DNA of 64,000 nt from Robiginitalea sp. GTDB lineage: Bacteria > Bacteroidota > Bacteroidia > Flavobacteriales > Flavobacteriaceae. Below are positions 24,896 through 39,604 of the stretch, piece by piece. Position 1 is the stretch's first letter; every line of letters begins with the position of its first letter. The DNA is taken from contig JAHEJJ010000006.1 of the NCBI GenBank assembly GCA_024638915.1, forward strand, positions 1 to 64,000. Reading direction: 5' to 3'. Both the position numbers and the translations under genes were made by a program. Under the pieces are notes generated by a model. That model had not been told where the DNA came from, ran no database searches, and worked only from the letters and a program-made list of their open reading frames with translations.

Positions 24896-25339
24896 TTAAC
24901 TGAGCAAGCTCTTCTGCTTCTCTTTCCTGATCACCTTCGAAATTAGGCCAAATAACTGTTTTTTCAGTCCCCTGTAATCTTCAAGATAGTGCTGCATAAG
25001 GATCATTAACTCCTTATGAGTTTCCTTGTAGGCCCTTTCCATCTTGGGTTGATCGATATCATCGACCATGATCTCCAATTGATTTTCGTGAGCCTGAATC
25101 TTCTTCATCAGGATTTTAACTTCTTTTTCCGCGTCCAAAATAGCTGCTACGATGGCTTTGCTTTTTTCAAATCGGCCTGCATCTGCCAATTGAATCGTAT
25201 AGTGCTTTACCAGGCTGTTAAGAAAATCCTGTTCGTCCCGGACAAAATTTAGCTCGGAAAGCCACTGCACAGTCTCAGTATGCATATCTTCCGGACTGAT
25301 CCACTCGATATAGCGGTGTGTCTTCTCTTTTATTTTCAT
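24896..25339 (-). CDS. Small helical stress-island protein, paralogue 1
   Basis: 147 residues, soluble, almost entirely helical by pattern, no Cys cluster or membrane segment. I do not recognise a named family, but two paralogues lie in this window (25444-25857 and 39155-39604). Shared pattern: a Trp, then S-E/D-L/I-x-F, a D-E/D and F-L/V, for example WLSELNFVRDEQDFLNSLV here and WISEINFVQDEIVFVKKML in paralogue 2, followed by heptad-like helices. The fold is likely a three- or four-helix bundle. It has its own Crp/Fnr-type promoter (25373-25415). Confidence 0.75.
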   Translation of the reverse strand: MKIKEKTHRYIEWISPEDMHTETVQWLSELNFVRDEQDFLNSLVKHYTIQLADAGRFEKSKAIVAAILDAEKEVKILMKKIQAHENQLEIMVDDIDQPKMERAYKETHKELMILMQHYLEDYRGLKKQLFGLISKVIRKEKQKSLLS

Positions 25340-25372: not shown

Positions 25373-25415
25373 TGAAGGTACAGCACAAAACAGAGTGCAG
25401 AAATGATCAAGATCA
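25373..25415 (-). promoter_or_regulatory. Crp/Fnr-type activator box and -7 element, small helical protein 1
   Basis: Box TGATcaagATCA at 25404-25415, a perfect TGAT/ATCA palindrome with a 4-nt centre. Reading on the minus strand, 23 nt after the box lies TACCTTCA (25380-25373), a weak TAnnTTTG match. The start codon is 65 bp from the box. Same box-to--7 distance as six other sites in this region. Confidence 0.75.
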
Positions 25416-25443
25416 GTCGGGTTCAATTTAGAAGGAGTACATA

Positions 25444-25857
25444 CTACCTTCTTTTCTTTCTAAAAATACCAGCAGTGTACTCAAATATTCCCGACTTAAG
25501 CATCTGAAATTTCCTTGTTATCTGTTCGAGCCGCAGAGCTGTCTCCATGTGCTCTGTTTCTACATCAGAATGATCTTCTGAATTGATTTCTATAAGTGTT
25601 CCGAGTTCAACCTCATGGCGCTGTAACCCCGTTTCAAAAGTGGCTAACTCTCTTTCAAAGGATTCCAGCAGGCCGATATATTCCCGAATGCGCTCGAACA
25701 AATTGGCAGTGCCGGGCTCAAATACGTCGGAATTCAACATTTTCTTTACGAATACGATTTCGTCCTGAACAAAATTTATTTCGGATATCCACTTGTGAAT
25801 ATCACGGGAAAATCCTTCACCATCCTTGCGCTGATTAATAGAAACTTCTTTTGTCAT
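25444..25857 (-). CDS. Small helical stress-island protein, paralogue 2
   Basis: 137 residues, predicted all-helical, with WISEINFVQDEIVFVKKML near residue 20, a central helix around ERIREYIGLLESFERELATF, and a basic end FRKKRR. Homologous in pattern to the proteins at 24896-25339 and 39155-39604 but with weak identity outside the Trp/Asp-Glu region. Transcribed from its own Crp/Fnr-type promoter (25882-25924) downstream of the Usp operon. Function unknown; its place among universal stress proteins suggests a stress or dormancy role. Confidence 0.75.
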   Translation of the reverse strand: MTKEVSINQRKDGEGFSRDIHKWISEINFVQDEIVFVKKMLNSDVFEPGTANLFERIREYIGLLESFERELATFETGLQRHEVELGTLIEINSEDHSDVETEHMETALRLEQITRKFQMLKSGIFEYTAGIFRKKRR

Positions 25858-25881
25858 AATTCCTCTTTTTTAACGGTCATC

Positions 25882-25924
25882 TCAATCTAGGGGTTATTTC
25901 AAACATAAAGAATGACCAGGATCA
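25882..25924 (-). promoter_or_regulatory. Crp/Fnr-type activator box and -7 element, small helical protein 2
   Basis: Box TGACcaggATCA at 25913-25924 (one base off perfect symmetry). On the minus strand, 23 nt after it comes TAGATTGA (25889-25882). The start codon lies 56 bp from the box, the same distance as for two Usp genes. Confidence 0.75.
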
Positions 25925-25937
25925 CTTGATCCGGATT

Positions 25938-26786
25938 CTATGCCTGATCGTTCAAGGCCAGCATGGGTATTTTATAATGGTAGCCGATTTCCTTGACCAG
26001 CGGCCTTGAAAGTATCGTACTGAATAGATTATGCTTTCGGTTGATAAAGGCAATCATCCGGCTGTCCCGGCTATTGACAAAAGCGCCTATTCCGCTGTGA
26101 ATACCGCGGTCTTTTAAAACATGAAAACTGTGCTCTGTATCCTCCAGTATGGCGGCCAGCAATTCCCTGTTGCTTTTCTGCTCCTGATTCAACTCCTTGT
26201 TTTTCTCAATATGTAAGACCCGTATTGCCGCGTTATGCATGCCGGCTATCTCTGTCATATGCTGAAGCTCTTTTTTCTTGTAATAGACTTTAAAATCGGT
26301 AGGAAAGACGATTTCATTGGGGGGTTGAAAACCATATTCCTCTGGAATGGTCAATACCGGGCAATTGGTGATCCCTTCCATAAGGTTGATGGCATTGGTG
26401 CCAAAAATAAGGCTCTCGGCTCCGGTAATTCCTTTTGTACCCATAACGACAAGATCGATGTCTTTCTGAGCTATAGCAGTTTCCGCGGCATGTAAAAGCG
26501 AATTGTAGCTGGCGATCGACTCAAAATGATGTCCCGGGTTTTGCGGATGAAAAGAGATGCGTTCTAAAAGCTCGGTAAGTTGCTTTTCGGAAGATGACCT
26601 TGCTGCCTGGTAAGCGATGTCTTCAGGCTCCGGATCGAAAGGGCTGTCTACCGAATATCCACTGATCTGATATGCATTGAGCAGATAAAAATCACAGGCT
26701 ATCTGGGCAAATAGCTGCATGGCATATCGGCTGGCATTCAGGGCCGTTGATGAAAAATCGGTAGGTATTAAAATCCTTTTATTCAT
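25938..26786 (-). CDS. Universal stress protein, tandem-domain
   Basis: 282 residues, two Usp domains. The N-terminal domain starts RILIPTDFSSTALNASRYAM and keeps the ATP-binding signature G-x2-G-x9-G-T (MGTKGITGAESLIFGTNA); the C-terminal domain (from about residue 150, EIVFPTDFKVYYKKKEL) lacks it. Last of four usp genes read as one minus-strand operon from 29403, with a 42-bp gap upstream. Usp proteins bind ATP and help cells survive starvation, low oxygen or oxidative stress. Confidence 0.93.
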   Translation of the reverse strand: MNKRILIPTDFSSTALNASRYAMQLFAQIACDFYLLNAYQISGYSVDSPFDPEPEDIAYQAARSSSEKQLTELLERISFHPQNPGHHFESIASYNSLLHAAETAIAQKDIDLVVMGTKGITGAESLIFGTNAINLMEGITNCPVLTIPEEYGFQPPNEIVFPTDFKVYYKKKELQHMTEIAGMHNAAIRVLHIEKNKELNQEQKSNRELLAAILEDTEHSFHVLKDRGIHSGIGAFVNSRDSRMIAFINRKHNLFSTILSRPLVKEIGYHYKIPMLALNDQA

Positions 26787-26828
26787 AATATCGGATCAAC
26801 GATCCTTTACAGATCTGATTAATAGGCC

Positions 26829-27686
26829 CTATACTCGCGTAGCCCCGGCGGGCATAACCAAAAAGGGGATATCGAGTTTGAATATCAATTTATGGAACAC
26901 CGGCTCACGGATAAGTTGGGCAAGCATACCATGTTCGTATTTGATCATTGCCAGCAGTTCTATATTGAGTTCATCTACAAAAGTCTCTATTACATGGCTC
27001 TTATTGCTAAAATCAGGCATCCAGTGGACGGAATGGTTTACTTCGGCCAGATATTCTTTCAGGATATTCAGATTCGTTTTTTGAAGCTTGCTTAAACGCT
27101 CATGTTCATTGATATGGATAATGCGGACCGATGCTCCGTACAAAGCGGTAAGTTCTTTCAGGGGATGCAGCAATCCGGCATCGTAAGGGTGCTTGTAGTC
27201 CGTGGCAAATGCTATCTCCTTAGGCATATTGCATTCGATCTCTTTAGGAACGATGAGCAAGGGGCAATCGGTAATTTCATCAATGGCCTTGGAAACCGTG
27301 CTGCCCATTATTATGTTATCAACTGCCGCCGTCCCTTTATGGCCCATAACCAAAAGATCGATATGGTAGTGGTCGATAGCCTGATTCGCTATCTCTGAGA
27401 AATGCCCGTTTCTCGAAAGTGTCTTGAATTGATGCAAAGGATTATTCTGATCGAGATGGATCCTGTGGTAGACCTCATTCAATCCTTCGGCCGACTCTTC
27501 GGATAGCTGTTCGATCAGTGACCGGCGGCTTCCTGCTCCCACCTTCTGGCTGATCAGCTTTGTTAGCTCGGTATAGCTGTTTAGCAGATAAAAATTACAT
27601 TTTCGCTCTTTGAAGAGTTCAGTAGCAAAGAACAATGCATTGTATGCGTTATTCGAAAAATCGGTAGCGACGAGAATATTTTTCAT
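26829..27686 (-). CDS. Universal stress protein, tandem-domain
   Basis: 285 residues. N-terminal NILVATDFSNNAYNALFFAT; the nucleotide-binding motif reads MGHKGTAAVDNIIMGSTV, i.e. G-x2-G-x9-G-S with His in place of Thr/Ser after the first Gly. The second domain (from about residue 150, EIAFATDYKHPYDAG) is degenerate. Third gene of the four-usp operon, starting 11 bp after the previous stop. Confidence 0.92.
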   Translation of the reverse strand: MKNILVATDFSNNAYNALFFATELFKERKCNFYLLNSYTELTKLISQKVGAGSRRSLIEQLSEESAEGLNEVYHRIHLDQNNPLHQFKTLSRNGHFSEIANQAIDHYHIDLLVMGHKGTAAVDNIIMGSTVSKAIDEITDCPLLIVPKEIECNMPKEIAFATDYKHPYDAGLLHPLKELTALYGASVRIIHINEHERLSKLQKTNLNILKEYLAEVNHSVHWMPDFSNKSHVIETFVDELNIELLAMIKYEHGMLAQLIREPVFHKLIFKLDIPFLVMPAGATRV

Positions 27687-27697
27687 GGTTCACATGT

Positions 27698-28537
27698 TTA
27701 CTGATGAGGTAAAACCATAAAGGGTATGGAAACATGAAATCCTATTTTTTTGATAATAGGTTCTATAAATAAACTTTCCAGGAAAGTGTGTTTATTCTGT
27801 ACCATAGCCAGCAGTTCTACTTTGTGCTCTTTTTGAAAATTATTGATGGCTTCTATAACTTCCTGGCTTGGAACCTCATAATACTTTGTGTTCAAAGGGG
27901 CAAGAATTTTTTCAAGAGTAAATCTGTTTTTTTTCTGGTTTTCGGTAAGTCCATAGCCCGAGGCAATATGCAACACGTGAATTTCCGCATCGACCATACT
28001 GGCTAGTTCCAATAAGGCCGATAGCTCTTCCACCTGATAATCTATTTCATAATCTGTTGGAAACAATATTGAAGTGGGCGCTGTAAAAGTATATACCGCA
28101 GGAATGGCCAATACCGGTTTTATAGATTTCTTGATCACATGTACCGTATGGGTTCCCAAAAATATTTCTTTGGCTCCGCTAGCGCCCTGAGTACCCATAA
28201 TTACAAAATCAGCCTTTTCTTTTTCTGTCATACTCACCACCTCATCGACCAGAATATTGAATGCTGAATGGGTGATCAGCGTATGCTTCGGGTTTTTAAA
28301 CTCCTGCTCTAATTGCTTATGGAGTTTTTCGAGTTGCTCCTGAGATTCGGACTGGTATATATCACCCAGACCAATCTGCCCCGGACTATGTAATACATAT
28401 TCGGCCTGGTATATGGCCGGAGTATATGTATTCATCAGATAAATGGTACACTCCTGGTCCTCAAACAGCTTTAAGGCGTATCGTGCGGCATTCAATGCAT
28501 TTTCAGAAAAATCTGTGGGAAGAATGATTCGTTTCAT
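27698..28537 (-). CDS. Universal stress protein, tandem-domain
   Basis: 279 residues. N-terminal RIILPTDFSENALNAARYAL, intact ATP motif MGTQGASGAKEIFLGTHT, second domain SILFPTDYEIDYQVEELSAL without the Gly signature, and a C-terminus FHVSIPFMVLPHQ shared with its neighbours. Second gene of the four-usp operon. The series probably arose by tandem duplication followed by divergence, since all four share the same half-degenerate architecture. Confidence 0.93.
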   Translation of the reverse strand: MKRIILPTDFSENALNAARYALKLFEDQECTIYLMNTYTPAIYQAEYVLHSPGQIGLGDIYQSESQEQLEKLHKQLEQEFKNPKHTLITHSAFNILVDEVVSMTEKEKADFVIMGTQGASGAKEIFLGTHTVHVIKKSIKPVLAIPAVYTFTAPTSILFPTDYEIDYQVEELSALLELASMVDAEIHVLHIASGYGLTENQKKNRFTLEKILAPLNTKYYEVPSQEVIEAINNFQKEHKVELLAMVQNKHTFLESLFIEPIIKKIGFHVSIPFMVLPHQ

Positions 28538-28557
28538 GTCTTGCGGTTTTCTTCTGG

Positions 28558-29403
28558 TTACCTGGCCAAATTCTGAAGTACCAGAAATGGTATTTTTATA
28601 TGTAATCCTATCTTATCGATAGTAGAGCGATAAAGCATATCCTCCAGATGTGAGTGCCTGGAGTTGACCATGACCAACATATCGATATCATTGTGAACTA
28701 TATATTTCGTGATGGCTATAGTTTTATCACTTTCTTCGGTCGTTTCAAAAGTCAGCACTGCCTTTTGCAAACATTCTTTTAGAAATCCCATGTTGTCTTC
28801 CTGCCTAAGGGATAACTTTAGGAGCGGGTTGACATAGAGCATATGGATCGTAGCCCGAAAAGACCCTGAAAGTTCAGATAACAGTTTCAATTCTCTTCTT
28901 TTATAGGGTACCATATAATCCGATGGGAACAGCATTTCTTTTGGTGGATGGTAAGCATACTGTTCTGGAATGGCCAATACAGGACACTGTACATATTTAA
29001 GCACCTGTAAGGTATTAGTGCCAAAGGTGATCTTGCGGTCGTTGGTTTCACCACGTGTACCCATAACCACCACATCTATATTCTCTGTATTTACAAGGTC
29101 ATTGATCTCATCGGTGAGTGTTCCAAAAGCAGAAATAAGATTGAATTTATGTTTTGGATTTGGAGAATATTCCTGTATTCGAACCGAGGTCTCCTGCAAA
29201 CTTTGCTGTGACCTTTGATAGGTAACCTCCTTTAATTCATCTAAAAAACTACGCTTCACCACCGTATCCTGAAGATAAACATCTTCTGCATAGGCATGTA
29301 AAATATAAAAATCGCTTCTCTCGTACTTAAATACCTGACAGGCATATTTTAAGGCATTAAAAGCGTTTGATGAAAAATCTGTTGGAACAACCACCTTTCT
29401 CAT
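28558..29403 (-). CDS. Universal stress protein, tandem-domain, first of the usp operon
   Basis: 281 residues from ATG 29403, chosen because MRKVVVPTDFSSNAFNALKY is the family start; the frame is open 17 codons further upstream, but that stretch overlaps the promoter. ATP motif MGTRGETNDRKITFGTNT; second domain EMLFPSDYMVPYKRRELKLL. First gene of the operon and directly behind a bidirectional Crp/Fnr-type box (29459-29470) shared with thioredoxin. Confidence 0.92.
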   Translation of the reverse strand: MRKVVVPTDFSSNAFNALKYACQVFKYERSDFYILHAYAEDVYLQDTVVKRSFLDELKEVTYQRSQQSLQETSVRIQEYSPNPKHKFNLISAFGTLTDEINDLVNTENIDVVVMGTRGETNDRKITFGTNTLQVLKYVQCPVLAIPEQYAYHPPKEMLFPSDYMVPYKRRELKLLSELSGSFRATIHMLYVNPLLKLSLRQEDNMGFLKECLQKAVLTFETTEESDKTIAITKYIVHNDIDMLVMVNSRHSHLEDMLYRSTIDKIGLHIKIPFLVLQNLAR

Positions 29404-29427
29404 GATAGATGTACTTTGGGTCTGATA

Positions 29428-29501
29428 TAAAATTAGTACGACCCAGGACGCCAAACCATGATAAAAATCAGGTGTACAATTGCTGAATTTAACTAACTTC
29501 G
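29428..29501. promoter_or_regulatory. Bidirectional Crp/Fnr-type promoter, usp operon / trxA
   Basis: Central box TGATaaaaATCA at 29459-29470. On the minus strand TAATTTTA (29435-29428) follows after 23 nt and leads to the usp operon, start codon 56 bp from the box. On the plus strand TAACTTCG (29494-29501) follows after 23 nt and leads to trxA, start codon 91 bp from the box. One activator dimer could thus serve both genes. Confidence 0.75.
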
Positions 29502-29560
29502 ACCCGATCTTTACCTATTGAGTTCAAGTAATTGATCCTGAGATCTCTAATTTTACAAGG

Positions 29561-29866
29561 ATGAAAGCATCATTTAAAAAGATCATAAACGCCGATGTGC
29601 CGGTACTTGTTGATTTTTATGCCGATTGGTGTGCCCCCTGCAAAGTCCTTGCGCCGGTCCTTCAGGAAGTCAAAAAACAGATGGGCGATGATGTGAAAAT
29701 TGTTAAAGTGGATGTCGACAAAAACGCCAAGCTGGCTGATAAATTCCAAATAAGAGGTGTGCCCACGATGATTCTATTCAAAAATGGGGAGGTGGTTTGG
29801 AGACAATCGGGTGTGCCTGGAAAGGAATCCATACTGCAGGCAATCCAATCGCAAAAAACCGCTTGA
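29561..29866 (+). CDS. trxA: Thioredoxin
   Basis: 101-residue classical thioredoxin: [20 protein letters not shown] with the redox pair Cys-Ala-Pro-Cys (E. coli has Cys-Gly-Pro-Cys), cis-Pro in [13 protein letters not shown], and no signal peptide, so cytosolic. The only plus-strand gene inside the usp array; it is divergent from the usp operon and sits behind the shared Crp/Fnr-type box, suggesting it is a stress-induced copy rather than the housekeeping thioredoxin. Confidence 0.95.
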
Positions 29867-29898
29867 GCTACGTAACTTTCGGATTCCTCAAATATTCA

Positions 29899-30738
29899 TC
29901 ATTCATGGAGTACCAAAAATGGGATGTCGGTATGATAGCTGATCTCCTCCACTTTGGGCTTGAATAAAATGCGCTGGTAAAAGTTTAAATTCTTGGCCAC
30001 CATGGCGACAATATCGATATCCCGACTTTCAACAAAACACTGAATGGCTGTTTCCAGATGGTTACTGGTGAGCGAATGGAAACTGTGTTCTATACCCCTC
30101 AGGTAATCGTGAAGAAAATCTTTATTCTCCAATTGTTTCTCGCTCAGATCCTCGCCCTTTTTCGATATATGAACGATCCTGAGCATAGCATCGTTCATTT
30201 CGACCATTTCGATCAGGGTGTCCAGTACTTTGATATCATATGCGATGTGATAATCGGTGGGGAATGCGATTTCCCTGGGAATTTTGTAAGAAGCATTTTC
30301 CGGAACTGCCAGCAAAGGACATTTAACCTTGGTAATGACATCGCCTGTATTACTGCCCAGGGTTACACGCTTCAATCCACTGGCTCCTTTAGTTCCCATA
30401 ACGATCAGATCGATCTTCTTGTCCTGTACTTCCCTTTTGACGCTTTCCACAAAATAGTCGTACAAGGCGGTGGTAACAAATAAATGATTGTTGTTGTCTG
30501 AGTACTCTTTAACTTGTTCCACCAAAGTTTTAAGCTGTGCTTTGCTTTCCTTGAGCATAGACTCCTTCAGGATGGCTGTTGATGTCCTGACCGAACTCCC
30601 CGCCCCTGAATAAGGCGGAATTGGATTTACATTGAGGAGATAGAAGGTGCATTTATCATTTTTAAAAAAATCAAGGCAATACTTTAAAGCATTCCATGAG
30701 TTTAATGAAAAATCCGTCGGTAGTAATATTCGTTTCAT
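29899..30738 (-). CDS. Universal stress protein, tandem-domain
   Basis: 279 residues. N-terminal RILLPTDFSLNSWNALKYCL, intact ATP motif MGTKGASGLKRVTLGSNT, degenerate second domain EIAFPTDYHIAYDIKVLDTL, C-terminus YHTDIPFLVLHE. Transcribed alone from its own Crp/Fnr-type promoter (30763-30805), which has the best -7 element of the series, and convergent with trxA. Confidence 0.93.
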   Translation of the reverse strand: MKRILLPTDFSLNSWNALKYCLDFFKNDKCTFYLLNVNPIPPYSGAGSSVRTSTAILKESMLKESKAQLKTLVEQVKEYSDNNNHLFVTTALYDYFVESVKREVQDKKIDLIVMGTKGASGLKRVTLGSNTGDVITKVKCPLLAVPENASYKIPREIAFPTDYHIAYDIKVLDTLIEMVEMNDAMLRIVHISKKGEDLSEKQLENKDFLHDYLRGIEHSFHSLTSNHLETAIQCFVESRDIDIVAMVAKNLNFYQRILFKPKVEEISYHTDIPFLVLHE

Positions 30739-30762
30739 ATCGGTAAAGGATTTAAACGTTCA

Positions 30763-30805
30763 CAAAAATACGCGCATCCCCCCTACTTGTAAATGACTCT
30801 CATCA
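30763..30805 (-). promoter_or_regulatory. Crp/Fnr-type activator box and -7 element, usp 29899-30738
   Basis: Box TGACtctcATCA at 30794-30805; on the minus strand 23 nt later comes TATTTTTG (30770-30763), an exact TAnnTTTG. Start codon 56 bp from the box. No TTG -33 element is present, as expected if an activator replaces it. Confidence 0.8.
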
Positions 30806-30830
30806 TATTGCCTTTCATAATTCATTCCAT

Positions 30831-31883
30831 TTACCGCATATTCTGAAGTCTTTTGGTATCGATAATCTTAATACTTCGGTCTTTGATATCGATAATACCC
30901 TCTTTCTTAAAACTTGAAAGTGTCCTGATCAGTGTTTCGGTAGCCATACCAGCTACCCCTGCAAGGTCGCTTCGGAGAATGTGAATATTGCCCAGCCTGT
31001 CTTCCTGGAGTTTATCTGTAAATCTTAGCAGAGTACTCGCCGTCTTTCTCCTGACTGAACCATAGGCCATCTCCAAAAGCTGTTCCCTTGTTTCTGAGAG
31101 GTCTTCTGCCAGCATTTGAAGGAGTTCCATGATAAGGTCAGAATTATGTTCAAGCGCCCTTTTCAACTGCTCCTTAGTAATACCGGTTAACCTGCATTCT
31201 TCAATGGCTGTGGCATATTCCCGATAAGGAATATTGCTGGTAAAACTAGTAAATCCGAAAAAATCATCCGCCTTATAAATACCTGTAATAAGTTCTTTTC
31301 CCTGTTCATCCAGTTTATGAGTTTTCACAGCACCGCTCAGAATAAGGTAAACCAGATTTGAGTTGTCTCCTTCCCGGTATATCTCCTGGTTTAACCCAAA
31401 AGTGAATTCCCTTCCGTGATCATCTATATAATTCTTAAATTCTTCTAAGTTTCTGATATCCAAGCCCTCTGTCCAATACTGTTGCCCTTCCTGCTCGCTT
31501 AGTTCCTTCAGGATAACGGATCGGGCGATACGGCTTTCAATAGCACCGATGAGTTCAGATTCTTCAAAGGGCTTTGTGATATAATCGTCTGCTCCCAGTT
31601 CCATGCCTTTGCGGATATCCTTTCTTTCGGTTTTTGCAGACAGGAAAATAAAGGGTATTCCTTGTGTATCGTGGTGCTCTGACAATGCCTCTAAAACCTG
31701 GTAGCCATCCATCCCGGGCATCATAATATCACAAACGATCACATCAGGGATATTATGTCTTGCCAGCACTATTCCCTTTATACCGTCCGAGGCCGTAAGC
31801 ACTTCATACTTCGCTAAATTCAGCAATTCTGCTGTATTTTCCCTAAGCACATTATCGTCTTCTATGAGGAGAACTCTTTTCAT
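30831..31883 (-). CDS. Response regulator with Crp/Fnr-type DNA-binding output
   Basis: 350 residues from ATG 31883. Receiver domain (1-120): Asp8-Asp9 (IEDD is residues 7-10), phospho-acceptor Asp52 in CDIMMPGMDG, Lys104 in YITKPF. Then a cyclic-nucleotide-binding-like beta barrel (about 150-245, EIYREGDNSNLVYLILSGAV) and a Crp-type winged HTH (about 275-345). In the recognition helix ATETLIRTLSSF, Glu316 and Arg320 match the Glu and Arg of FNR/CRP that read a TGA core; FNR's Ser between them is Ile. No N-terminal Cys cluster, so it is not an FeS oxygen sensor. It follows the LOV kinase by 61 bp and is surrounded by matching TGAY-N4-RTCA boxes. Confidence 0.93.
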   Translation of the reverse strand: MKRVLLIEDDNVLRENTAELLNLAKYEVLTASDGIKGIVLARHNIPDVIVCDIMMPGMDGYQVLEALSEHHDTQGIPFIFLSAKTERKDIRKGMELGADDYITKPFEESELIGAIESRIARSVILKELSEQEGQQYWTEGLDIRNLEEFKNYIDDHGREFTFGLNQEIYREGDNSNLVYLILSGAVKTHKLDEQGKELITGIYKADDFFGFTSFTSNIPYREYATAIEECRLTGITKEQLKRALEHNSDLIMELLQMLAEDLSETREQLLEMAYGSVRRKTASTLLRFTDKLQEDRLGNIHILRSDLAGVAGMATETLIRTLSSFKKEGIIDIKDRSIKIIDTKRLQNMR

Positions 31884-31944
31884 CAACTGCTTAATTTTAA
31901 GTACAATTTACGCCCAAATAAGTGTCCGATGCGTAACCTTAGTC

Positions 31945-33837
31945 TCATCTTACGGGTTTTTGGTCCAAAGGTAGTACGATTGTAAAGATACTCCCCTGAT
32001 TTTCCACACTCTCAAACTCAATACTTCCACCCAAGTTTTCAACATGGGTTTTGACTATATTCAGGCCGATTCCGGTCCCCTGGGTGGTTAAGACATTTCC
32101 TGCTCTGAAATAGCGTTCAAATATATGCTTCTGATCCCCCGCAGGTATTCCTACACCCTGGTCCTTGATCCTGAATATGACGCGATTTTCCAGGACTTCT
32201 ACCTCCATGAATATGGTTGTATTTTCATGAGAGTATTTAATCGCGTTGTGCAGGAGATTGGTCAGGGTTAGGGCAACGATCTTTTCATCCTGAAAAATCC
32301 TGATTTCTTCGATGTTTATAGGGTATTCTATTTTCTGACCTGTTTTTAATAACATATTGGCGCTATAGACCACTTCATTGATCACTTTACTGAGATAGAA
32401 TTCGGTCATCTTGTATATTTCCTTTCCTTGCTCCAGGCGCTCCACTGATAAAAAATCGTCCAGGATCCCTGTGAGATGCTTAACTTCCGAAGTAATGGAC
32501 TTTATGTGCTTATCTCGTTTTTGCTGTTGATCTTCCAACGGGTATTTTCCGATCAAAGTCGCAGAAGTTAGAATGGCGCTTAAAGGGGTTTTGAACTCAT
32601 GTGATACGAGCGACAGGAATTTGGTTTTGAGTGCCCCTAGTTCCTTTTCTTTGATCAGCGCCTGCCTTAGTTGTTCTGTGCGTTCGGCTACTGTATTTTC
32701 TAACTTTTTGGTATAGTCCTTCCTATCGGAGATATCCATTACAATGGCTACAATCAGCGTGCGATCTTCGAGTGAAGAAGATTGCATATGGATCTCTACC
32801 GGATAGCTGCTTCCGTCTTTACGGGAATAGGTGGTTTCCAGTTCAACCTTTTTACGTGAATTGGACAGTATCGGCTGTATGAGTTTTATGAATTTCTTTT
32901 TGCTGAACTCAGGCATGAGTTCATAGGGCTTCATCGATTGGAGTTCCTGCAACTTATAGCCAATACTTTTTTGTGCTCCAAAATTAGCATGGGTAAATTC
33001 AAGCGATTCCGCATCGAAAACATAGATCTCGTTCAGGGAGTCATTAAAGATCTTGATAAGGTGGCTTATTTCCTGTTCGGCCATCACCCTTTCTGAGACA
33101 TCGTTCTGTATACCTATGAAATGAGTGATCTTTCCATTGGTCGCCCGAATAGGATTTACCGACACTTCATTCCAGAACATGCTGCCGTCCTTTTTGTAAT
33201 TCCTTACCTCTACCTGGCAGCTGCTACCGGTTTTAATGGCCTCCCGGATCTGCTTTACCCCCTCCTGATTTCGATCTTTACGCTGTAGGAAGCGGCAGTT
33301 GTGCCCCATGATTTCTTCTTTGGTGTACCCCGTCAATTTCTGAAATGCCTTGTTATAATAAATAATGGGGTTATCCTCCTGTTGGGCATCGGTGATCACT
33401 ATTCCGTTAAGGGCAAATTCTAATGCTTTTCCTTTAATTTTGAGCTTGCGCCGATATTCCAGGGTCTGGGTCATGTCGTATACCACAGCCAGAACATATT
33501 TTCGCTGATAGATCGTGAAAGGGCTGAGACCTACTTCCAACGGAAATTCTTTTCCCGATTTTTTCAACCCACATAGCACCCTTCCGTCGGCCATCCGACC
33601 TTGTTTTCCCTGGTGGAAGAATTCGGTCATATGTTTTTCATGTGGTTTCTTATAATTGTCAGGAATGATCTGCGACAGGGATGTACCGATGAGTTCGTCG
33701 GGTTCATAACCAAAAAGAGATTCGGCCCGTCTGTTGATCGAGACGATCGTAAAATCGTGGTTCACCACTATGGTGCCCTCCATTATTGCCTCGGATAGGA
33801 GGTGAAAAATATTACCATTTTTTTTAAAAACGCGCAT
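31945..33837 (-). CDS. LOV-PAS sensor histidine kinase
   Basis: 630 residues, soluble. Domains: PAS 1 (about 12-125), LOV domain (about 135-255), PAS 3 (about 260-375), short coiled coil, HisKA with His413 in SHEFKTP, HATPase with Asn531 (HNAIKYS), DQGVGIP (559-565) and GTGIGLNI. The LOV core reads GHNCRFLQ with photoactive Cys181; Asn213, Asn223 (FWN) and Gln244 (GIQ) complete the FMN set. Cys-to-Asn (32) and Asn-to-Asn (10) spacings equal those of Bacillus YtvA. It should sense blue light by forming a Cys-flavin adduct and phosphorylate the receiver-Crp protein encoded next. It lies in an operon after hpf and a usp gene. Confidence 0.94.
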   Translation of the reverse strand: MRVFKKNGNIFHLLSEAIMEGTIVVNHDFTIVSINRRAESLFGYEPDELIGTSLSQIIPDNYKKPHEKHMTEFFHQGKQGRMADGRVLCGLKKSGKEFPLEVGLSPFTIYQRKYVLAVVYDMTQTLEYRRKLKIKGKALEFALNGIVITDAQQEDNPIIYYNKAFQKLTGYTKEEIMGHNCRFLQRKDRNQEGVKQIREAIKTGSSCQVEVRNYKKDGSMFWNEVSVNPIRATNGKITHFIGIQNDVSERVMAEQEISHLIKIFNDSLNEIYVFDAESLEFTHANFGAQKSIGYKLQELQSMKPYELMPEFSKKKFIKLIQPILSNSRKKVELETTYSRKDGSSYPVEIHMQSSSLEDRTLIVAIVMDISDRKDYTKKLENTVAERTEQLRQALIKEKELGALKTKFLSLVSHEFKTPLSAILTSATLIGKYPLEDQQQKRDKHIKSITSEVKHLTGILDDFLSVERLEQGKEIYKMTEFYLSKVINEVVYSANMLLKTGQKIEYPINIEEIRIFQDEKIVALTLTNLLHNAIKYSHENTTIFMEVEVLENRVIFRIKDQGVGIPAGDQKHIFERYFRAGNVLTTQGTGIGLNIVKTHVENLGGSIEFESVENQGSIFTIVLPLDQKPVR

Positions 33838-33881
33838 AGGAAAAATTTATAAGAGCTAGTTTCAGATCGGGAATAAGATGC

Positions 33882-34718
33882 CTAGATCTTGCAACTGATG
33901 ACAGGAAATTTGGCGTGATTGGCCAAATCTGCTCCCAGGCTCCCTTTGAAAAAATGCATTAAACCGCTACGCCCGTGAGTTGGGATCGCGATCACATCTG
34001 CATCGATTTCTCCCGCTACGAAATAAACACCTCCTTCGATGGTATAGTCCGAAACAAATCGGATCGAGGTTTTAGATGGAAGTCTACCTCCATGGGCAGC
34101 GTTCATAAAATTGTCGGCCGTCTCCTGCTTCTCCCGCGTACTTCTGAATTTTTCATTTGGCAGGTTAACATAAACCAGGCAGACCTCGGCATCCCAAAGG
34201 GTTGCCAGTTTCCTGATTCGGTTATAAGCTACTATTGCTTCAAGGCTGAAGTCGGTGGCAAAAACCACTTTTCGCGGATTAAAATCAGGGCGTCGGGTCT
34301 TGATTACCAGCACGGGTATCTCGGAACTGCGCACCACCTTTTCCGTATTGGACCCGACAAATAACTCACTCAATCCTCCGGTACCATGCGAACCCATCAC
34401 GATAAGATCGATATTCTGCTCGGCGGCAACTTGATTGATTTCACTGAAAATTTTATAATTCTGGACTATTTCGCTTACTTTCAAATCTTTAAGATAGGGT
34501 TGATTAAGAAAGCGTTCGAACCTGGTTTTGGCCAGTTTCATATAATAATGTGCTTCTGCGAATTCCTGTGTCTCATCTTTGGTAAGAAAGGCCTCAGAAA
34601 GTCCTAACATATGAAGTACTATAATTTCGGATTCGTATTTCCGTGCCAGTATTGCGGCTACCTCCAATGCGAATCCTGCGTGCTCAGAAAAATCGACGGG
34701 TACCAGGATCCTCTTCAT
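33882..34718 (-). CDS. Universal stress protein, both domains with ATP motif
   Basis: 278 residues; unlike the other usp genes here, both halves keep the Gly signature: MGSHGTGGLSELFVGSNT in the first domain and PTHGRSGLMHFFKGSLG in the second. N-terminal RILVPVDFSEHAGFALEVAA. It therefore belongs to a different Usp subfamily. Second gene of the hpf-usp-kinase-regulator operon (24 bp after hpf, 44 bp before the kinase), so its dose follows that of the signalling pair. Confidence 0.93.
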   Translation of the reverse strand: MKRILVPVDFSEHAGFALEVAAILARKYESEIIVLHMLGLSEAFLTKDETQEFAEAHYYMKLAKTRFERFLNQPYLKDLKVSEIVQNYKIFSEINQVAAEQNIDLIVMGSHGTGGLSELFVGSNTEKVVRSSEIPVLVIKTRRPDFNPRKVVFATDFSLEAIVAYNRIRKLATLWDAEVCLVYVNLPNEKFRSTREKQETADNFMNAAHGGRLPSKTSIRFVSDYTIEGGVYFVAGEIDADVIAIPTHGRSGLMHFFKGSLGADLANHAKFPVISCKI

Positions 34719-34742
34719 AATTCAGGCTTATTATGCTAATAG

Positions 34743-35042
34743 TCAGTATTTCTTAAACGTGTGTTTGCGTTTCTGCAATTGTACTTCTAAATCTTTAATC
34801 GTTCCTGCAGCGGCCTTTTCAAAATCATCTTCATTGCTTTTGGCAAATATTCTGGGGCCGGGAACACTTAAACGGATCTCGCAAATCTTGCCTTTACCCG
34901 ACGGATCGTTTTCCATCTTAAAAAATACATCCGCCCGGATTATAAAATCGAATTTTTTGGACAGTTTATTCAGTTTGCTTGTCATCAATTCATTCATAGC
35001 CTCACTGGTAGGCATTTGAATATATTGGTAATTAATCGTCAT
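34743..35042 (-). CDS. hpf: Ribosome hibernation promoting factor (short HPF/RaiA type)
   Basis: 99 residues: MTINYQYIQMPTSEAMNELM, then CEIRLSVPGPRIFAKSNEDD and a C-terminal helix with basic residues (LEVQLQKRKHTFKKY). The beta-alpha-beta-beta-beta-alpha layout of HPF/YfiA fits. It binds the 30S decoding region and inactivates ribosomes in resting cells. No long C-terminal dimerisation domain. First gene of the operon with usp, the LOV kinase and the receiver-Crp regulator, behind the box at 35099-35110, so ribosome silencing is tied to the same signal. Confidence 0.88.
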   Translation of the reverse strand: MTINYQYIQMPTSEAMNELMTSKLNKLSKKFDFIIRADVFFKMENDPSGKGKICEIRLSVPGPRIFAKSNEDDFEKAAAGTIKDLEVQLQKRKHTFKKY

Positions 35043-35067
35043 ATGTAGAAGTTTTGAGATGTGAATA

Positions 35068-35110
35068 TAAAATTCGCTGAGCTGACACTAGAAAACTATG
35101 ACATTTATCA
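35068..35110 (-). promoter_or_regulatory. Crp/Fnr-type box and -7 element of the hpf-usp-LOV kinase-regulator operon
   Basis: Box TGACatttATCA at 35099-35110; on the minus strand, 23 nt later, GAATTTTA (35075-35068). Start codon of hpf 57 bp from the box. The regulator gene is the last of this operon, so the site implies autoregulation. In the plus direction no -7 element is found at 23 nt. Confidence 0.72.
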
Positions 35111-35122
35111 TTCCCGGTCAAA

Positions 35123-35623
35123 TCACAGAGCGGGAATCTCAAAAAAAGGTTGGTTTAGGGTTAGTCGGTTGCCTAAGTAACTAACGGAAATCGTTTTGCC
35201 CTTTTTATTCAAGAGCATAACCACCAACACACCCAGGATAATAATATTTTTAATAATATACTGACCAAGCAAGGTAAGTCCGAACGGTGCATCGGTCCAC
35301 AACAGCTCGGAAAAGAAAACAAAAGGTGAAAATGTTAAAAGAATATGTATCAGGGCCATTTGTATGGTAAAGCGATTCCAAAGATTAAAGATTAAAAGGA
35401 TTCCAATAGCCGTTTCCCAAACGGCTAGTAGTATAATGGACACTTCCGGAAGTATCAACCCCTCTGTCAGATGGGTGATAGTATTTTTGGCCAGTTGTTC
35501 AGCCGGACTGACCCCTGAGAAAAACTTCAGACTGCCAAATTAGAGATAGACCAGACCAATACTGATGGGTAGTATCGATAATTGAGAGAGTCGCCTTATG
35601 GAGACGGGTAGGATATCTTTCAT
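35123..35623 (-). pseudogene. DoxX-like membrane protein gene interrupted by an in-frame stop
   Basis: Reading from ATG 35623, the frame gives MKDILPVSIRRLSQLSILPI and SIGLVYL, then TAA (35542-35540), then continues in the same frame with FGSLKFFSGVSPAEQLAKNT and four membrane segments to the end at 35123. The interrupted spot corresponds to the usual YxWFGxLKFF of DoxX-like membrane proteins. Full length would be 166 codons. Either a young nonsense mutation, or a base-call error, or a restart at the TTG near 35458 gives a truncated 111-residue product. It retains a Crp/Fnr-type promoter upstream. Confidence 0.75.
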
Positions 35624-35642
35624 TATTATTTGATTAAAGCCG

Positions 35643-35716
35643 CTAATCTATTAGCAGCCAAACAATAAAAAGATGATAAATGTCATAGTATAAGCGGTGC
35701 CAGGGATATAGGTTGC
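35643..35716. promoter_or_regulatory. Crp/Fnr-type box before the DoxX pseudogene, possibly bidirectional
   Basis: Box TGATaaatGTCA at 35674-35685. On the minus strand TAGATTAG (35650-35643) follows after 23 nt, and ATG 35623 is 51 bp from the box. On the plus strand TAGGTTGC (35709-35716) also follows after 23 nt, pointing to the ABC efflux operon, but its start codon is about 190 bp further, so that direction is less sure. Confidence 0.65.
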
Positions 35717-35911
35717 CCCTATTTTAGTTCCCAAATTTATCAGGTTCTATTGGTGAACTGCTAAATAAATAAGGTAAATTAGAACTGGATTGCATCCCTG
35801 ATAGACCCACTATACTGGGAATTTTAGTACACTGGAAATCAGTTGTTAATGCGTATAAAATATTATTGAAAGATGCCTCAGTATCCCAAAAATTACGATG
35901 TCTTGCTCTTT

Positions 35912-37027
35912 ATGGAAAGGAATTGGCTCGTGGGATTGGCGTATAATTTTCTAACTATTCTGAGCTTCTTAGCTTTGGTTGGACTCACTTCCTGCCGATC
36001 AGATAGGGACAGTATCACACCAACGATCACTACCATCACAGAATCCGTTTATTCTTCTGCTACGGTTCAACCAGACAGCCTTTATCAGGTTTATGCTGCT
36101 GTTTCAGGTATTTTGGACCAGAATCTTGTGGAAGAGGGAGATACTGTTATCAGGGGTACCCCCATCGCACAGATTATAAACAATGCCCCACAACTCAATG
36201 TGGAAAATGCTCGTTTAAACCTTGAGCTAGCCATAGACAATTACAGCGGTAATAATGCTGTGCTAAGGACCTTAAAAGATGAAATCAGAGCAGCTCGCCT
36301 TAGGGTTCAAAACGACTCGGTCAACTTTTTCAGGCAGAAAAACTTATGGGAACAAAACATCGGTTCAGCCGTAGAATACGATAGTAGAAAACTTGCTTAT
36401 GAACTTTCGAGTAATAACTTGTCGCTGTTGATCAGCAATTACGAACGAACCAAAAACGAACTGAAAACAAAAGTCATCCAGGCGGAAAATAATTACAAGA
36501 CGGCACAAATAACAACAGGTGATTTTACAGTTGAAAGTAAGATTCAGGGGACCGTTTACGCGCTTTATAAGAATCACGGGGAATCGATCAGCGTCCTGGA
36601 ACCACTCGCGGCTATTGGCAGCTCAAAAGAGTATATCATCGAGTTGCTGGTAGACGAAGTGGACATCGTAAAGATTCTTCTCGGCCAGCCAGTACTGGTT
36701 ACGCTCGATGCCTATCAGGGCCAGGTTTTTGAAGCCAATGTGCGTAAAATTTACCCCAGGAAAGATGAAAGAACACAAACCTTTAAAATAGAGGCAGTTT
36801 TTAGTCAACCCCCCGAAGTTTTGTACCCGGGTCTGGCCGGTGAAGGCAATATTGTGGTGGGAAAGAAAGAAAATGCCATGACCATACCTCGTGAATACCT
36901 TGTAGCTGAAAATCAGGTAATGACCAAAGATGGCCTCGTTTCTGTTCAGCTGGGGCTTCACAACCTGGAACTGGTCGAAATACTGGGCGGGATAAATAAA
37001 GAAACGAATATCTTAAAACCAGAGTAA
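35912..37027 (+). CDS. HlyD/MacA-type periplasmic adaptor lipoprotein
   Basis: 371 residues from ATG 35912 (an ATG at 35873 would add 13 residues before the signal). N-terminal hydrophobic segment ending LVGLTSC, a lipobox, then a split biotinyl/lipoyl-like domain (AAVSGILDQNLVEEGDTVIR), a long alpha-hairpin (about residues 95-190) and a beta-barrel with LVDEVDIVKILLGQPVLVTL. This is a membrane fusion protein linking an inner-membrane ABC pump to an outer-membrane channel. Its stop overlaps the start of the permease (TAATGA). Confidence 0.9.
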   Translation: MERNWLVGLAYNFLTILSFLALVGLTSCRSDRDSITPTITTITESVYSSATVQPDSLYQVYAAVSGILDQNLVEEGDTVIRGTPIAQIINNAPQLNVENARLNLELAIDNYSGNNAVLRTLKDEIRAARLRVQNDSVNFFRQKNLWEQNIGSAVEYDSRKLAYELSSNNLSLLISNYERTKNELKTKVIQAENNYKTAQITTGDFTVESKIQGTVYALYKNHGESISVLEPLAAIGSSKEYIIELLVDEVDIVKILLGQPVLVTLDAYQGQVFEANVRKIYPRKDERTQTFKIEAVFSQPPEVLYPGLAGEGNIVVGKKENAMTIPREYLVAENQVMTKDGLVSVQLGLHNLELVEILGGINKETNILKPE

Positions 37028-38289
37028 TGACCAATTGGAAGGTTATTCTGCAAATCGCCAGGACACATTTAGTGACCAAGTTGAAATCGACTGTTACGGC
37101 TTCGCTGGGTGTCACTTTTGGTATCGGTGCTTATATTACCCTGGTCAGCTTTATGACCGGACTCAACAAAATGCTCGATGATCTTATCCTGAATCAAACC
37201 CCTCATATCCATCTCTACAATGAAATTGAACCATCAGCTCAACAACCAGTGGCGCTTTATCCCGAGTTTGAAGAAGCCATAAACATCGTCCGCTCGGTAA
37301 AACCAAAGAAAAGTCAGCGAAAGATCCATAATGCCTTACCAATTTTAAATTATTTAAGGGAAAAGGAGAATGTAAAAGGTGCTACCCCACAACTAAGGGC
37401 TCAAATCTTTTATTTATCGGGTTCTATCGAAATCGGGGGGAATCTGACCGGCATTGACGTGATGGAAGAGATAAGGTTATCTAATTTCAGGGACTATATC
37501 GTAGAAGGTAGCTCCGAAGCGCTGCTCAATACAGAAAACGGCATCCTGCTCGGTTCCGGCCTGGCGGATAAAATGTCGCTATCCACTGGAGACAGGGTGC
37601 AGATCAGCACGGTTAAAGGCGATGTATTTCCCTTAAAGATTGTGGGGCTGTACCAAAGTGGAATTGCCGATATAGATAATATTCAGAGCTATACCAACCT
37701 CAAGACGGTTCAGCGCATTCAGGGTGAGGCCGAAAACTATATTACCGATATCAATATAAAACTATACGATTTAGGCGAGGCCGTACCCATGGCGAGGCAG
37801 TTAGAAAAACAATTCAAGGTTAAGGCTACAGATATCATCGCGGCAAATGCACAATTTGAAACCGGATCCAATATCAGGAACCTCATCACTTATGCGGTGT
37901 CGGTTACCTTGCTTATCGTCGCCGGTTTTGGTATTTATAACATCCTTAATATGTTGATCTATGAAAAGATGAAAGACATTGCTATACTAAAGGCAACGGG
38001 GTTTTCGGGCAAAGACGTACAGTTGATCTTCATGAGCCAGGCAATGATCATTGGCCTGATCGGCGGGGCGATGGGACTTTTAGTCGGTTTCGTATTATCG
38101 CGTGTGATCGATCAAATTCCTTTCGAAACTGAGGCCTTGCCCACGATTACCACTTTTCCGGTTAACTACAAACTGGGATACTATATCATCGGTATTGTAT
38201 TTGCTTTGATATCCACCTTTATAGCGGGGTATTTACCCTCTAATAAGGCCAAAAAGATAGATCCTGTAAAAATCATAAGGGGTACTTAA
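37027..38289 (+). CDS. ABC transporter permease (FtsX/MacB-like)
   Basis: 420 residues: one N-terminal membrane segment (VTASLGVTFGIGAYITLVSF), a large periplasmic domain of about 220 residues, then three C-terminal segments (VSVTLLIVAGFGIYNILNML, LIGGAMGLLVGFVLSRV and YYIIGIVFALISTFIAGYL) and the end KAKKIDPVKIIRGT typical of FtsX-type permeases. With the adaptor and ATPase it makes a MacAB/DevBCA-like tripartite exporter whose cargo (lipoprotein, peptide, antibiotic or glycolipid) cannot be told. No outer-membrane TolC is encoded alongside. Confidence 0.92.
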   Translation: MTNWKVILQIARTHLVTKLKSTVTASLGVTFGIGAYITLVSFMTGLNKMLDDLILNQTPHIHLYNEIEPSAQQPVALYPEFEEAINIVRSVKPKKSQRKIHNALPILNYLREKENVKGATPQLRAQIFYLSGSIEIGGNLTGIDVMEEIRLSNFRDYIVEGSSEALLNTENGILLGSGLADKMSLSTGDRVQISTVKGDVFPLKIVGLYQSGIADIDNIQSYTNLKTVQRIQGEAENYITDINIKLYDLGEAVPMARQLEKQFKVKATDIIAANAQFETGSNIRNLITYAVSVTLLIVAGFGIYNILNMLIYEKMKDIAILKATGFSGKDVQLIFMSQAMIIGLIGGAMGLLVGFVLSRVIDQIPFETEALPTITTFPVNYKLGYYIIGIVFALISTFIAGYLPSNKAKKIDPVKIIRGT

Positions 38290-38298
38290 ATCGGAGCG

Positions 38299-38982
38299 AT
38301 GGGAATTTTATTGGAAGCCCAAAATATAAATAAGCATTTTAGAAAACCTGTTGATTTTCATGTATTGCAAGACATCAGTTTTGCCGTACAACGCGGAGAA
38401 TTCGTAAGTATAATGGGTAAATCGGGATCAGGTAAATCAACCCTGCTCTATATTCTCTCTACCCTGGATACTGATTATGAAGGACGTTTATGGTTCAATG
38501 GGGAACTTCTAACCGGCAAAGGGCAAAAACAGCTATCCAAAGTTCGCAATCAACATATCGGATTTGTTTTCCAGTTTCACTATCTGCTCTTAGAATTTTC
38601 CGTGCTTGAAAATGTTATGCTCCCGGCACAAAAACTAGGTGCCAAAACTCATTTGGAAATAGAAAAACAGGCCCATAAGAGCCTGGGGATGCTCGGAATT
38701 GAACACCTTGGCAAGAAAAAGGCCTCAAGGATCTCAGGAGGTGAAAAACAACGTGTCGCCATAGCACGTGCCCTGATCAACAAACCTGACATCCTTATGG
38801 GAGATGAGCCCACCGGTAATCTCGACAGCTTCAATTCAGAAAATGTCTTTCAAATTTTTAAGCAACTCAAGGAAGAGGAAGGTCTTTCGCTTCTGGTGGT
38901 CACGCACGATGGGGATTTTGCACGGAGAACAGATCGGATAATCACCATGGAGGATGGTCGGATTATTGGAGGCAACGGGTAG
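38299..38982 (+). CDS. ABC transporter ATP-binding protein (LolD/MacB-like)
   Basis: 227 residues: Walker [13 protein letters not shown]-loop [12 protein letters not shown], signature [16 protein letters not shown], Walker [14 protein letters not shown] and switch His in VVTHDGDF. Of the LolD/MacB/FtsE clade, which powers FtsX-type permeases. Third gene of the operon, 9 bp after the permease stop. Confidence 0.95.
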
Positions 38983-39090
38983 TCATCATCCTCTAGGTAG
39001 GACCTATTTTAACTACTGAGCTTTATCTCCTATTAAGCCATTAATACACTGCTTAAGAGCTTCTGCCAAAAATATTCGATGATACAGTTA

Positions 39091-39133
39091 TGATTTATAT
39101 CATATTTATTTCCGGCATACAGTCCTACATTTA
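39091..39133 (+). promoter_or_regulatory. Crp/Fnr-type activator box and -7 element, small helical protein 3
   Basis: Box TGATttatATCA at 39091-39102, a perfect palindrome within the longer ATGATTTATATCAT. Twenty-three nt later comes TACATTTA (39126-39133). Start codon 53 bp after the box. It is the only plus-strand single-direction member of the set and 4 kb from the regulator gene operon. Confidence 0.78.
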
Positions 39134-39154: not shown

Positions 39155-39604
39155 ATGAATACTTCAAATAAATCTACCCAAGTTAATCTTGCCGCTGATC
39201 CCAAATGGCAGGAACTATATGTACTTACAGAACACTGGCAATCGGATCTGGAATTCTATAAGGACGATTTGCGGTTTCTCCACCATCTTGTCGATAAATA
39301 TGTGATCTGGATTACCAAGAGCGAGAACCTTGAAATAGTTAAGGAAATTATGCTGAGTGTAATAGATCTCAAACAGAGATGCTTCAAGCTGATCGAAAAA
39401 GTGGCAGATCACAAACATAATCTGGCCATGTTGGAAAAAGATGCACTAAAAGAACGATGGGAAAAGGTTAAGACAGATCATGGGGAAATGGAGCATGCCA
39501 TCTATAATTTTGTAAAAGAATTCAGGGCTAATCGTAAAGAAGTGTTCAGGATCACCGAATACATCATCGATAGTGAAGAACTAACCAATCTTTTGAAAGC
39601 TTGA
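39155..39604 (+). CDS. Small helical stress-island protein, paralogue 3
   Basis: 149 residues, predicted all-helical and soluble. The family pattern is HWQSDLEFYKDDLRFLHHLV near residue 30, equivalent to the WxSExNFVxDExxFL of the two copies at 24.9-25.9 kb. Further helices contain KHNLAMLEKDALKERWEKVK and a C-terminal EYIIDSEELTNLLKA. It stands 13 kb from its paralogues yet has the same type of Crp/Fnr promoter, evidence that these proteins belong to the regulon. No known function. Confidence 0.78.
   Translation: MNTSNKSTQVNLAADPKWQELYVLTEHWQSDLEFYKDDLRFLHHLVDKYVIWITKSENLEIVKEIMLSVIDLKQRCFKLIEKVADHKHNLAMLEKDALKERWEKVKTDHGEMEHAIYNFVKEFRANRKEVFRITEYIIDSEELTNLLKA

Follow-up and report, generated by a model that had tools for sequence, protein, structure and literature searches.

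Why should seven Crp/Fnr-like boxes of the form TGAY-N4-RTCA, spread over 13.7 kb of a Robiginitalea sp. genome, each stand exactly 23 nucleotides (nt) away from an element of the TAnnTT type? The boxes lie in a window of 64,000 nt, i.e., the whole stretch of DNA that was analysed (contig JAHEJJ010000006.1, assembly GCA_024638915.1), and a preliminary description of this window had taken them for class II activator sites of an undescribed stress/dormancy regulon. All seven were found where that description had put them, with the paired octamers exactly 23 nt off, and the distances to the start codons agree as well, being 64-76 nt from the start of the box to the ATG in clear cases and 102 nt for trxA. 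We consider it probable that the seven boxes are part of a genome-wide set of about fifty, which would constitute a low-oxygen survival regulon run through class II promoters by two regulators: a receiver-Crp protein, encoded in the window beside a FixL-type histidine kinase, and an FNR-like Crp protein (C66 Crp).

The window holds eight TGAY-N4-RTCA boxes in total, i.e., 16 box-strands. TAnnTT was found at a spacing of 23 in eight of these, and in zero to two at each other spacing from 5 to 44; the eighth box (25050), which lies inside the open reading frame (ORF) 24896-25339, has no TAnnTT at 23. Over the whole genome (3,039,379 bases in 81 contigs), the box followed by N23 and TAnnTT gave 50 matches, 8 in the window and 42 outside it, compared to one match for the pattern read backwards and two for the same pattern with a spacing of 22. 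The box alone gave 270 matches, against 78 in the control. We also analysed 80 loci (L001-L080) picked solely for encoding a homologue of receiver-Crp: TAnnTT stood at 23 in 387 of 1066 box-strands, compared to 5-25 for each of the other spacings between 5 and 44; in the reversed sequence, none of 106 box-strands had it at 23. Species of Maribacter, Arenibacter, Lutibacter and Winogradskyella are represented in this set of loci. Small extra counts were seen in the histogram of these loci at spacings of 24 (24) and 29 (25). Given the genome-wide controls and the 80-locus counts, the spacing is fixed far beyond chance, as had been claimed. A regulon as such is also upheld, and it extends over the whole genome, with 42 of the 50 sites outside the window.

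In the position weights, TGAY-N4-RTCA is preceded mostly by A or C and followed by T, the latter at 92-96% of sites in four genomes and at 75% in L057-L080. TAnnTT was itself the rule by which sites were selected; the -7 consensus of Bacteroidetes sigma-A promoters is TAnnTTTG. The base after TAnnTT is T at 56-77% in four genomes and in L001-L056 and is not marked in L057-L080. The next base is G at 43-52% in the own genome, in G050 (a relative with receiver-Crp only) and in L001-L080, against a background G of 13-17%; it is mostly A in two relatives with C66 Crp only, G155 (G 21%) and G055 (G 35%). The flanking T and G thus follow the sigma-A form and, going by its letters, the element is an FNR-like core joined to a Bacteroidetes-type -7 element. 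With the first T of TA taken as -12, the predicted start puts the box, at its fixed spacing, near -41.5, i.e., the class II activator position. In E. coli, 19 of 23 FNR-activated promoters with a known start are reported to have their box at -41.5 +/- 4 (PMC3688515). As geometry (23 nt), the class II placement of the preliminary description is borne out, and that the sites activate transcription we infer. Among 536 boxes in the 80 loci and the window, a -7-like element was found on one side of 337 and on both sides of 28; at the latter (28/365), divergent promoters may depend in pairs on a single dimer.

The window sites are also kept in relatives. Footprinting was performed on the best tblastn homologue having upstream DNA in the 80 loci, where the best Usp homologues may be paralogues, and the box with its element at 23 was found upstream of the usp operon in 53 of 61 cases, the lone usp in 53 of 56, small helical protein C in 11 of 12, small helical protein B in 9 of 13 and doxX in 7 of 8. 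Upstream of hpf homologues the box was kept in 17/20, with TAnnTT at 23 in 12/20, or in 16/20 when one mismatch was allowed.

Five proteins with a cNMP-binding domain are encoded in the own genome, and the recognition helix ATE[ST]..IR was found in two Crp-type proteins, receiver-Crp and C66 Crp (C19 and C6 were read only in part). Receiver-Crp has a cNMP-binding fold and a Crp helix-turn-helix (HTH) by Pfam. The Glu and Arg of the Crp HTH are DNA-contact residues, and here E317 and R321 are present in 79 of 81 aligned rows, the other two having gaps. Its phospho-acceptor Asp53 is invariant (81/81), and with a receiver Asp and a partner kinase it has the make-up of a two-component response regulator, for which phosphotransfer is predicted. 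For C66 Crp, the closest solved structures are a Crp/Fnr-family protein of Porphyromonas, 2gau, and FNR second. In the numbering of the FNR cluster-ligand cysteines, C66 Crp has Cys at three of the four positions, and it scored 113.7 bits against NCBIfam Fnr, below the cut-off of 228. The C66 Crp gene (L106, G000:C66) lies divergent to a gene that by sequence reading resembles a cbb3-type copper ATPase; downstream of C66 Crp is a Usp-like gene having its own box.

To which of these proteins does the motif belong? In 299 Flavobacteriaceae genomes, receiver-Crp (E <= 1e-60) was present in 159 and C66 Crp (E <= 1e-45) in 198. The median number of motif hits, with the control in brackets, was 36 (3) in the 98 genomes with both regulators, 21 (2) in the 61 with receiver-Crp only, 14 (3) in the 100 with C66 Crp only and 3 (2) in the 40 with neither, the difference between receiver-Crp only and neither having p = 6e-17. 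Counts that reached both 10 hits and three times the control were found in 92/98 genomes with both, in 57/61 with receiver-Crp only and in 1/40 with neither, and receiver-Crp carriers have 7 to 97 hits per genome. Where two genomes of one genus differed in receiver-Crp (17 pairs), the larger excess was in the carrier every time, and 12 of these pairs had equal C66 Crp status. Many of the 40 genomes with neither regulator are small, but size does not account for their low counts; the 15 of at least 2.5 Mb still have a median of 4 (control 3). The proposal that receiver-Crp is a regulator is thus strengthened, as the number of motifs follows its presence within the family. It is not the sole candidate: C66 Crp, too, goes with this motif, independently of receiver-Crp.

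The kinase ORF lies directly upstream of the regulator in 76 of the 80 loci, and in three of the other four less than 1.3 kb is available upstream. The best match of the first PAS domain of the window kinase (PAS1) is the PAS of FixL (1d06, E 4.5e-12), followed by the multi-sensor kinase 10jx and then a DosP-type haem PAS; relative to FixL, the His and Arg are aligned. The consensus of LOV domains is GXNCRFLQ, and the second PAS domain (PAS2) has GHNCRFLQ, including the adduct Cys, from which LOV photochemistry is predicted. As a universal part of the kinase, LOV was rejected, since NCRF.Q was found in only 12 of 77 kinases including that of the window (11/76 without it), and this scatter among homologues suggests a light input that would have been gained or lost.

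For each site, the ORF just downstream was picked by script as the target; some picks are possibly wrong, and at one of the 50 sites no ORF qualified under the rule of the script. Own-genome targets with a Pfam match are PFOR, a 2-oxoacid:ferredoxin oxidoreductase-like protein (POR domains), Hsp20, PPDK, DnaJ, Usp, thioredoxin, a flavin reductase-like protein, MlaE and a radical SAM protein, the last being of HemN type by sequence reading. Ferredoxin, cytochrome c and transhydrogenase, among others, were named by such reading alone; the ferredoxin-like homologue of G155 had no Pfam match at 1e-8, and a cytochrome-like protein had none at 1e-10. The cbb3 oxidase is among the predicted targets in relatives. 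The stress/dormancy content proposed before is present, i.e., Usp, Hpf, Hsp20 and DnaJ, and is not the whole, given PFOR, the 2-oxoacid oxidoreductase, PPDK and the HemN-like protein. Because the predicted targets include genes of low-oxygen energy metabolism, the regulon reads as one of hypoxia/anaerobiosis rather than of stress/dormancy alone. The 56 hits of G050 include boxes upstream of ten proteins of the Usp cluster and two of the small helical kind, of Hsp20, Hpf, thioredoxin, BON and PfkB, of one protein each from the MlaE and PPDK clusters (the latter of PEP-synthase type by reading), of a HemN-like protein and of cbb3. In G155 and G055, for which 34/34 and 46/52 hits were read, the box targets are the clusters of 2-oxoacid oxidoreductase, PFOR, ferredoxin and cytochrome, together with PPDK, cbb3 and Usp-cluster proteins, four of these last in G155 and three in G055. 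The comparison of these three genomes, with Pfam checked for some of the targets and with absence of a gene and absence of a box counting alike, suggests that receiver-Crp governs a stress core and the FNR-like Crp an energy core, and that the two overlap.

From these results we propose that the boxes are operators for Crp/Fnr-family activators, which would bind at the class II position upstream of a Bacteroidetes -7 element in sigma-A promoters. With the first T of TAnnTT at -12, the box centre would be at -41.5. An FNR/CRP dimer in that position is in contact with RNA polymerase, and this contact would fix the spacing at 23 nt. The two regulators, with their near-identical recognition helix, probably use the same box. 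The FixL-like PAS histidine kinase beside it would switch receiver-Crp by phosphorylating it, and the FNR-like Crp, encoded elsewhere in the genome, may have an iron-sulfur cluster as its oxygen sensor. The programme of low-oxygen survival that the two would switch on comprises Usp, ribosome hibernation, Hsp20/DnaJ, thioredoxin and the small helical proteins, as well as PFOR, ferredoxin, the 2-oxoacid oxidoreductase, PPDK and oxygen-independent haem synthesis.

Several observations weigh against this proposal. The same motif excess, by the threshold of 10 hits and three times the control, was also seen in 54 of the 100 genomes with C66 Crp only, so that at any one promoter receiver-Crp is a candidate regulator beside C66 Crp. 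The presence cut-offs are arbitrary and, apart from the pair test, the genomes are related and not independent; among genomes of the order and class that lie outside the family, the 21 that carry receiver-Crp did not differ from the 13 that lack it (p = 0.68). In C66 Crp the residue equal to FNR Cys29 is Asn, so the four-Cys set of FNR is incomplete. The target comparison comprises one genome with receiver-Crp only and two with the FNR-like Crp only, of which G055 is listed as 6% contaminated. Three window sites are weakly conserved: the box with its element at 23 was found for trxA in 10/22 loci and for small helical protein A in 9/22, and on the efflux side of box 35674 in 1/16 (9/16 with up to one mismatch). 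In L018, with 3.1 kb upstream of the regulator, no kinase was found. Finally, a His...Met...Arg/Asp pattern occurs in 54/77 kinases and a stricter one in 4/77; with the count so dependent on the pattern, haem binding by PAS1 is putative and we do not claim it.

Could the boxes be ordinary FNR sites, used by C66 Crp alone, with receiver-Crp a mere target that acts elsewhere? HemN-like proteins, PFOR, ferredoxin and cbb3 are typical of FNR-type regulons and are among the targets here, and the motif does occur in genomes with C66 Crp only, at a median of 14 against a control of 3. We regard this as unlikely, because the 61 genomes with receiver-Crp and no detected C66 Crp have a median of 21, against 3 in those with neither, because the carrier is ahead in every genus pair, including the 12 at equal C66 Crp status, and because ATE[ST]..IR is present in both recognition helices. 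It is likewise improbable that this is a Crp regulon for stress or for nutrients (carbon starvation), independent of oxygen, to which the low-oxygen genes would be incidental. Such a reading draws on the fact that Usp, Hpf, Hsp20 and DnaJ respond to many stresses, and CRP/FNR homologues of a Flavobacteriales metagenome-assembled genome were predicted to be MalR-like and carbon-sensing in one report (PMC8510549); yet PFOR, the 2-oxoacid oxidoreductase, the HemN-like protein and, in relatives, cbb3 have the same promoter architecture, and the kinase has a FixL/DosP-like PAS.

That light is a main input, with the LOV domain coupling blue light to the regulon, we hold to be quite improbable, although PAS2 of the window kinase has the motifs NCRFLQ and NYKKDG..FWN and matches the NCBIfam YtvA family blue-light photoreceptor at 184 bits (below the cut-off of 250): NCRF.Q is confined to a minority of the 77 kinases, most of which are PAS histidine kinases of about 380-530 amino acids without it, and the promoter architecture is still kept in many such loci. 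An artefact of composition, i.e., palindromic AT-rich intergenic DNA giving such combinations, gains only from the consensus being short and palindromic and has next to no probability. The sharp peak at a single spacing, the reversed-sequence and spacing-22 controls, and the background-level counts in genomes with neither regulator speak against it, and on these controls we rejected chance or composition as the origin of the motif. We retain the low-oxygen regulon under two regulators as the most probable reading.

In the window, box 25404..25415 (TGATCTTGATCA, -), with its -7 element TACCTTCA at 25373..25380 (-), 23 nt away, stands before small helical protein A (147 amino acids, 24896..25339, -), and box 25913..25924 (TGATCCTGGTCA, -), with TAGATTGA at 25882..25889 (-), before small helical protein B (137 amino acids, 25444..25857, -), of the same family as A. 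Small helical protein C (149 amino acids, 39155..39604, +) follows box 39091..39102 (TGATTTATATCA, +) with TACATTTA at 39126..39133 (+), and is predicted to be a bundle of long helices (mean predicted local distance difference test score, pLDDT, of 82.5). A, B and C had no Pfam or NCBIfam match, and comparison of the family fold with solved structures gave a best E of 0.05 and none <=0.001; we therefore assign no function. Small helical paralogues, mostly of 130-150 amino acids and with L093:15752-16141 as a further example, have 42 members among box targets.

Two of the seven boxes face both ways. Box 29459..29470 (both strands) is common to the divergent promoters of the usp operon (-), with TAATTTTA at 29428..29435 (-), and trxA (thioredoxin, 29561..29866, +), with TAACTTCG at 29494..29501 (+). 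The operon encodes four Usp-like proteins (25938-26786, 26829-27686, 27698-28537 and 28558-29415, all -), the last of which has a Pfam Usp match, the other three being named by sequence reading. Box 35674..35685 (both strands) is common to a DoxX-like gene (-), with TAGATTAG at 35643..35650 (-), and an efflux-like operon (+), with a -7-like element TAGGTTGC at 35709..35716 (+), again 23 nt away, that the preliminary description had lacked. The name DoxX is taken from that description, which listed the gene as a member; it stands as a box target and not as an intact frame, since 35123..35623 (-) holds one in-frame stop, owing to a pseudogene or an assembly error, and ORF 35126-35458 had no Pfam match.

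The lone Usp-like protein (29899..30738, -; named by sequence reading) lies behind box 30794..30805 (TGATGAGAGTCA, -) with TATTTTTG at 30763..30770 (-). Box 35099..35110 (TGATAAATGTCA, -) has a weak -7 element, GAATTTTA at 35068..35075 (-), one letter off TAnnTT, as is that of the hpf homologues of L001-L004, and is hence outside the 50 strict sites. Behind it run, all on the (-) strand, the Hpf-like ribosome hibernation factor (34743..35042; Ribosomal_S30AE by Pfam), a Usp-like protein named by sequence reading (33882..34718), the histidine kinase (31945..33837; FixL-like PAS, LOV-type PAS with GHNCRFLQ, third PAS, HisKA, HATPase) and receiver-Crp (30831..31886; REC, cNMP-binding fold, Crp HTH).

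The promoter code of box, 23 nt and -7 element can be scanned for in any genome of the flavobacteria, a major group of marine bacteria, and in these bacteria it ties a large set of stress proteins, together with small helical proteins of uncharacterised kind, to low-oxygen metabolism. It further points to a FixL-FixJ-FixK relay in shortened form and to an operator that two sensors have in common. The mechanism would be that of known class II Crp/Fnr activation. In the openly licensed literature that was searched, no description of this regulon or regulator architecture in Bacteroidota was met, and to that extent the word 'undescribed' is not contradicted.

The FNR consensus is TTGAT...ATCAA, whereas the outer bases here are mostly A/C...T, the -7 element is that of Bacteroidetes and there are at least two candidate regulators. 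The palindromic TGAY-N4-RTCA core, the fixed distance to the -10/-7 element and the predicted position at -41.5, which is the usual one of FNR in E. coli (PMC3688515), are the same as in FNR/CRP class II promoters. With LOV histidine kinases, the window kinase shares NCRFLQ and flanking motifs, which most homologous kinases do not have. DosR of M. tuberculosis is of a different regulator class. The lxa locus of Burkholderia cenocepacia, with 50 genes that include six Usp, alpha-crystallin, BON and phosphofructokinase, is raised in low oxygen and was compared with DosR in its report (PMC6127331). In gene content, these classes recur among the predicted targets of this genome (Usp, Hsp20) or of G050 (BON, PfkB), but in another phylum, scattered over the genome and with one fixed promoter architecture. 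In rhizobia and Burkholderia, FixL-FixJ-FixK likewise has a FixL-similar PAS kinase, a receiver and a Crp-type output on an FNR-like box, and FixLJ is reported to control FixK in B. dolosa (PMC6127331, PMC9104464). Here the receiver and the Crp output are fused, which would make the relay one step shorter, and oxygen sensing is predicted. We give about even chances to the full comparison, in which the functions of FixJ and FixK would be united in one protein under a FixL-like kinase with an optional LOV domain, sharing its operator with an FNR homologue, to run in many Flavobacteriaceae a DosR/lxa-like low-oxygen dormancy regulon whose promoters would number from about ten to about a hundred in each genome, with two divergent promoters on one box in some cases.

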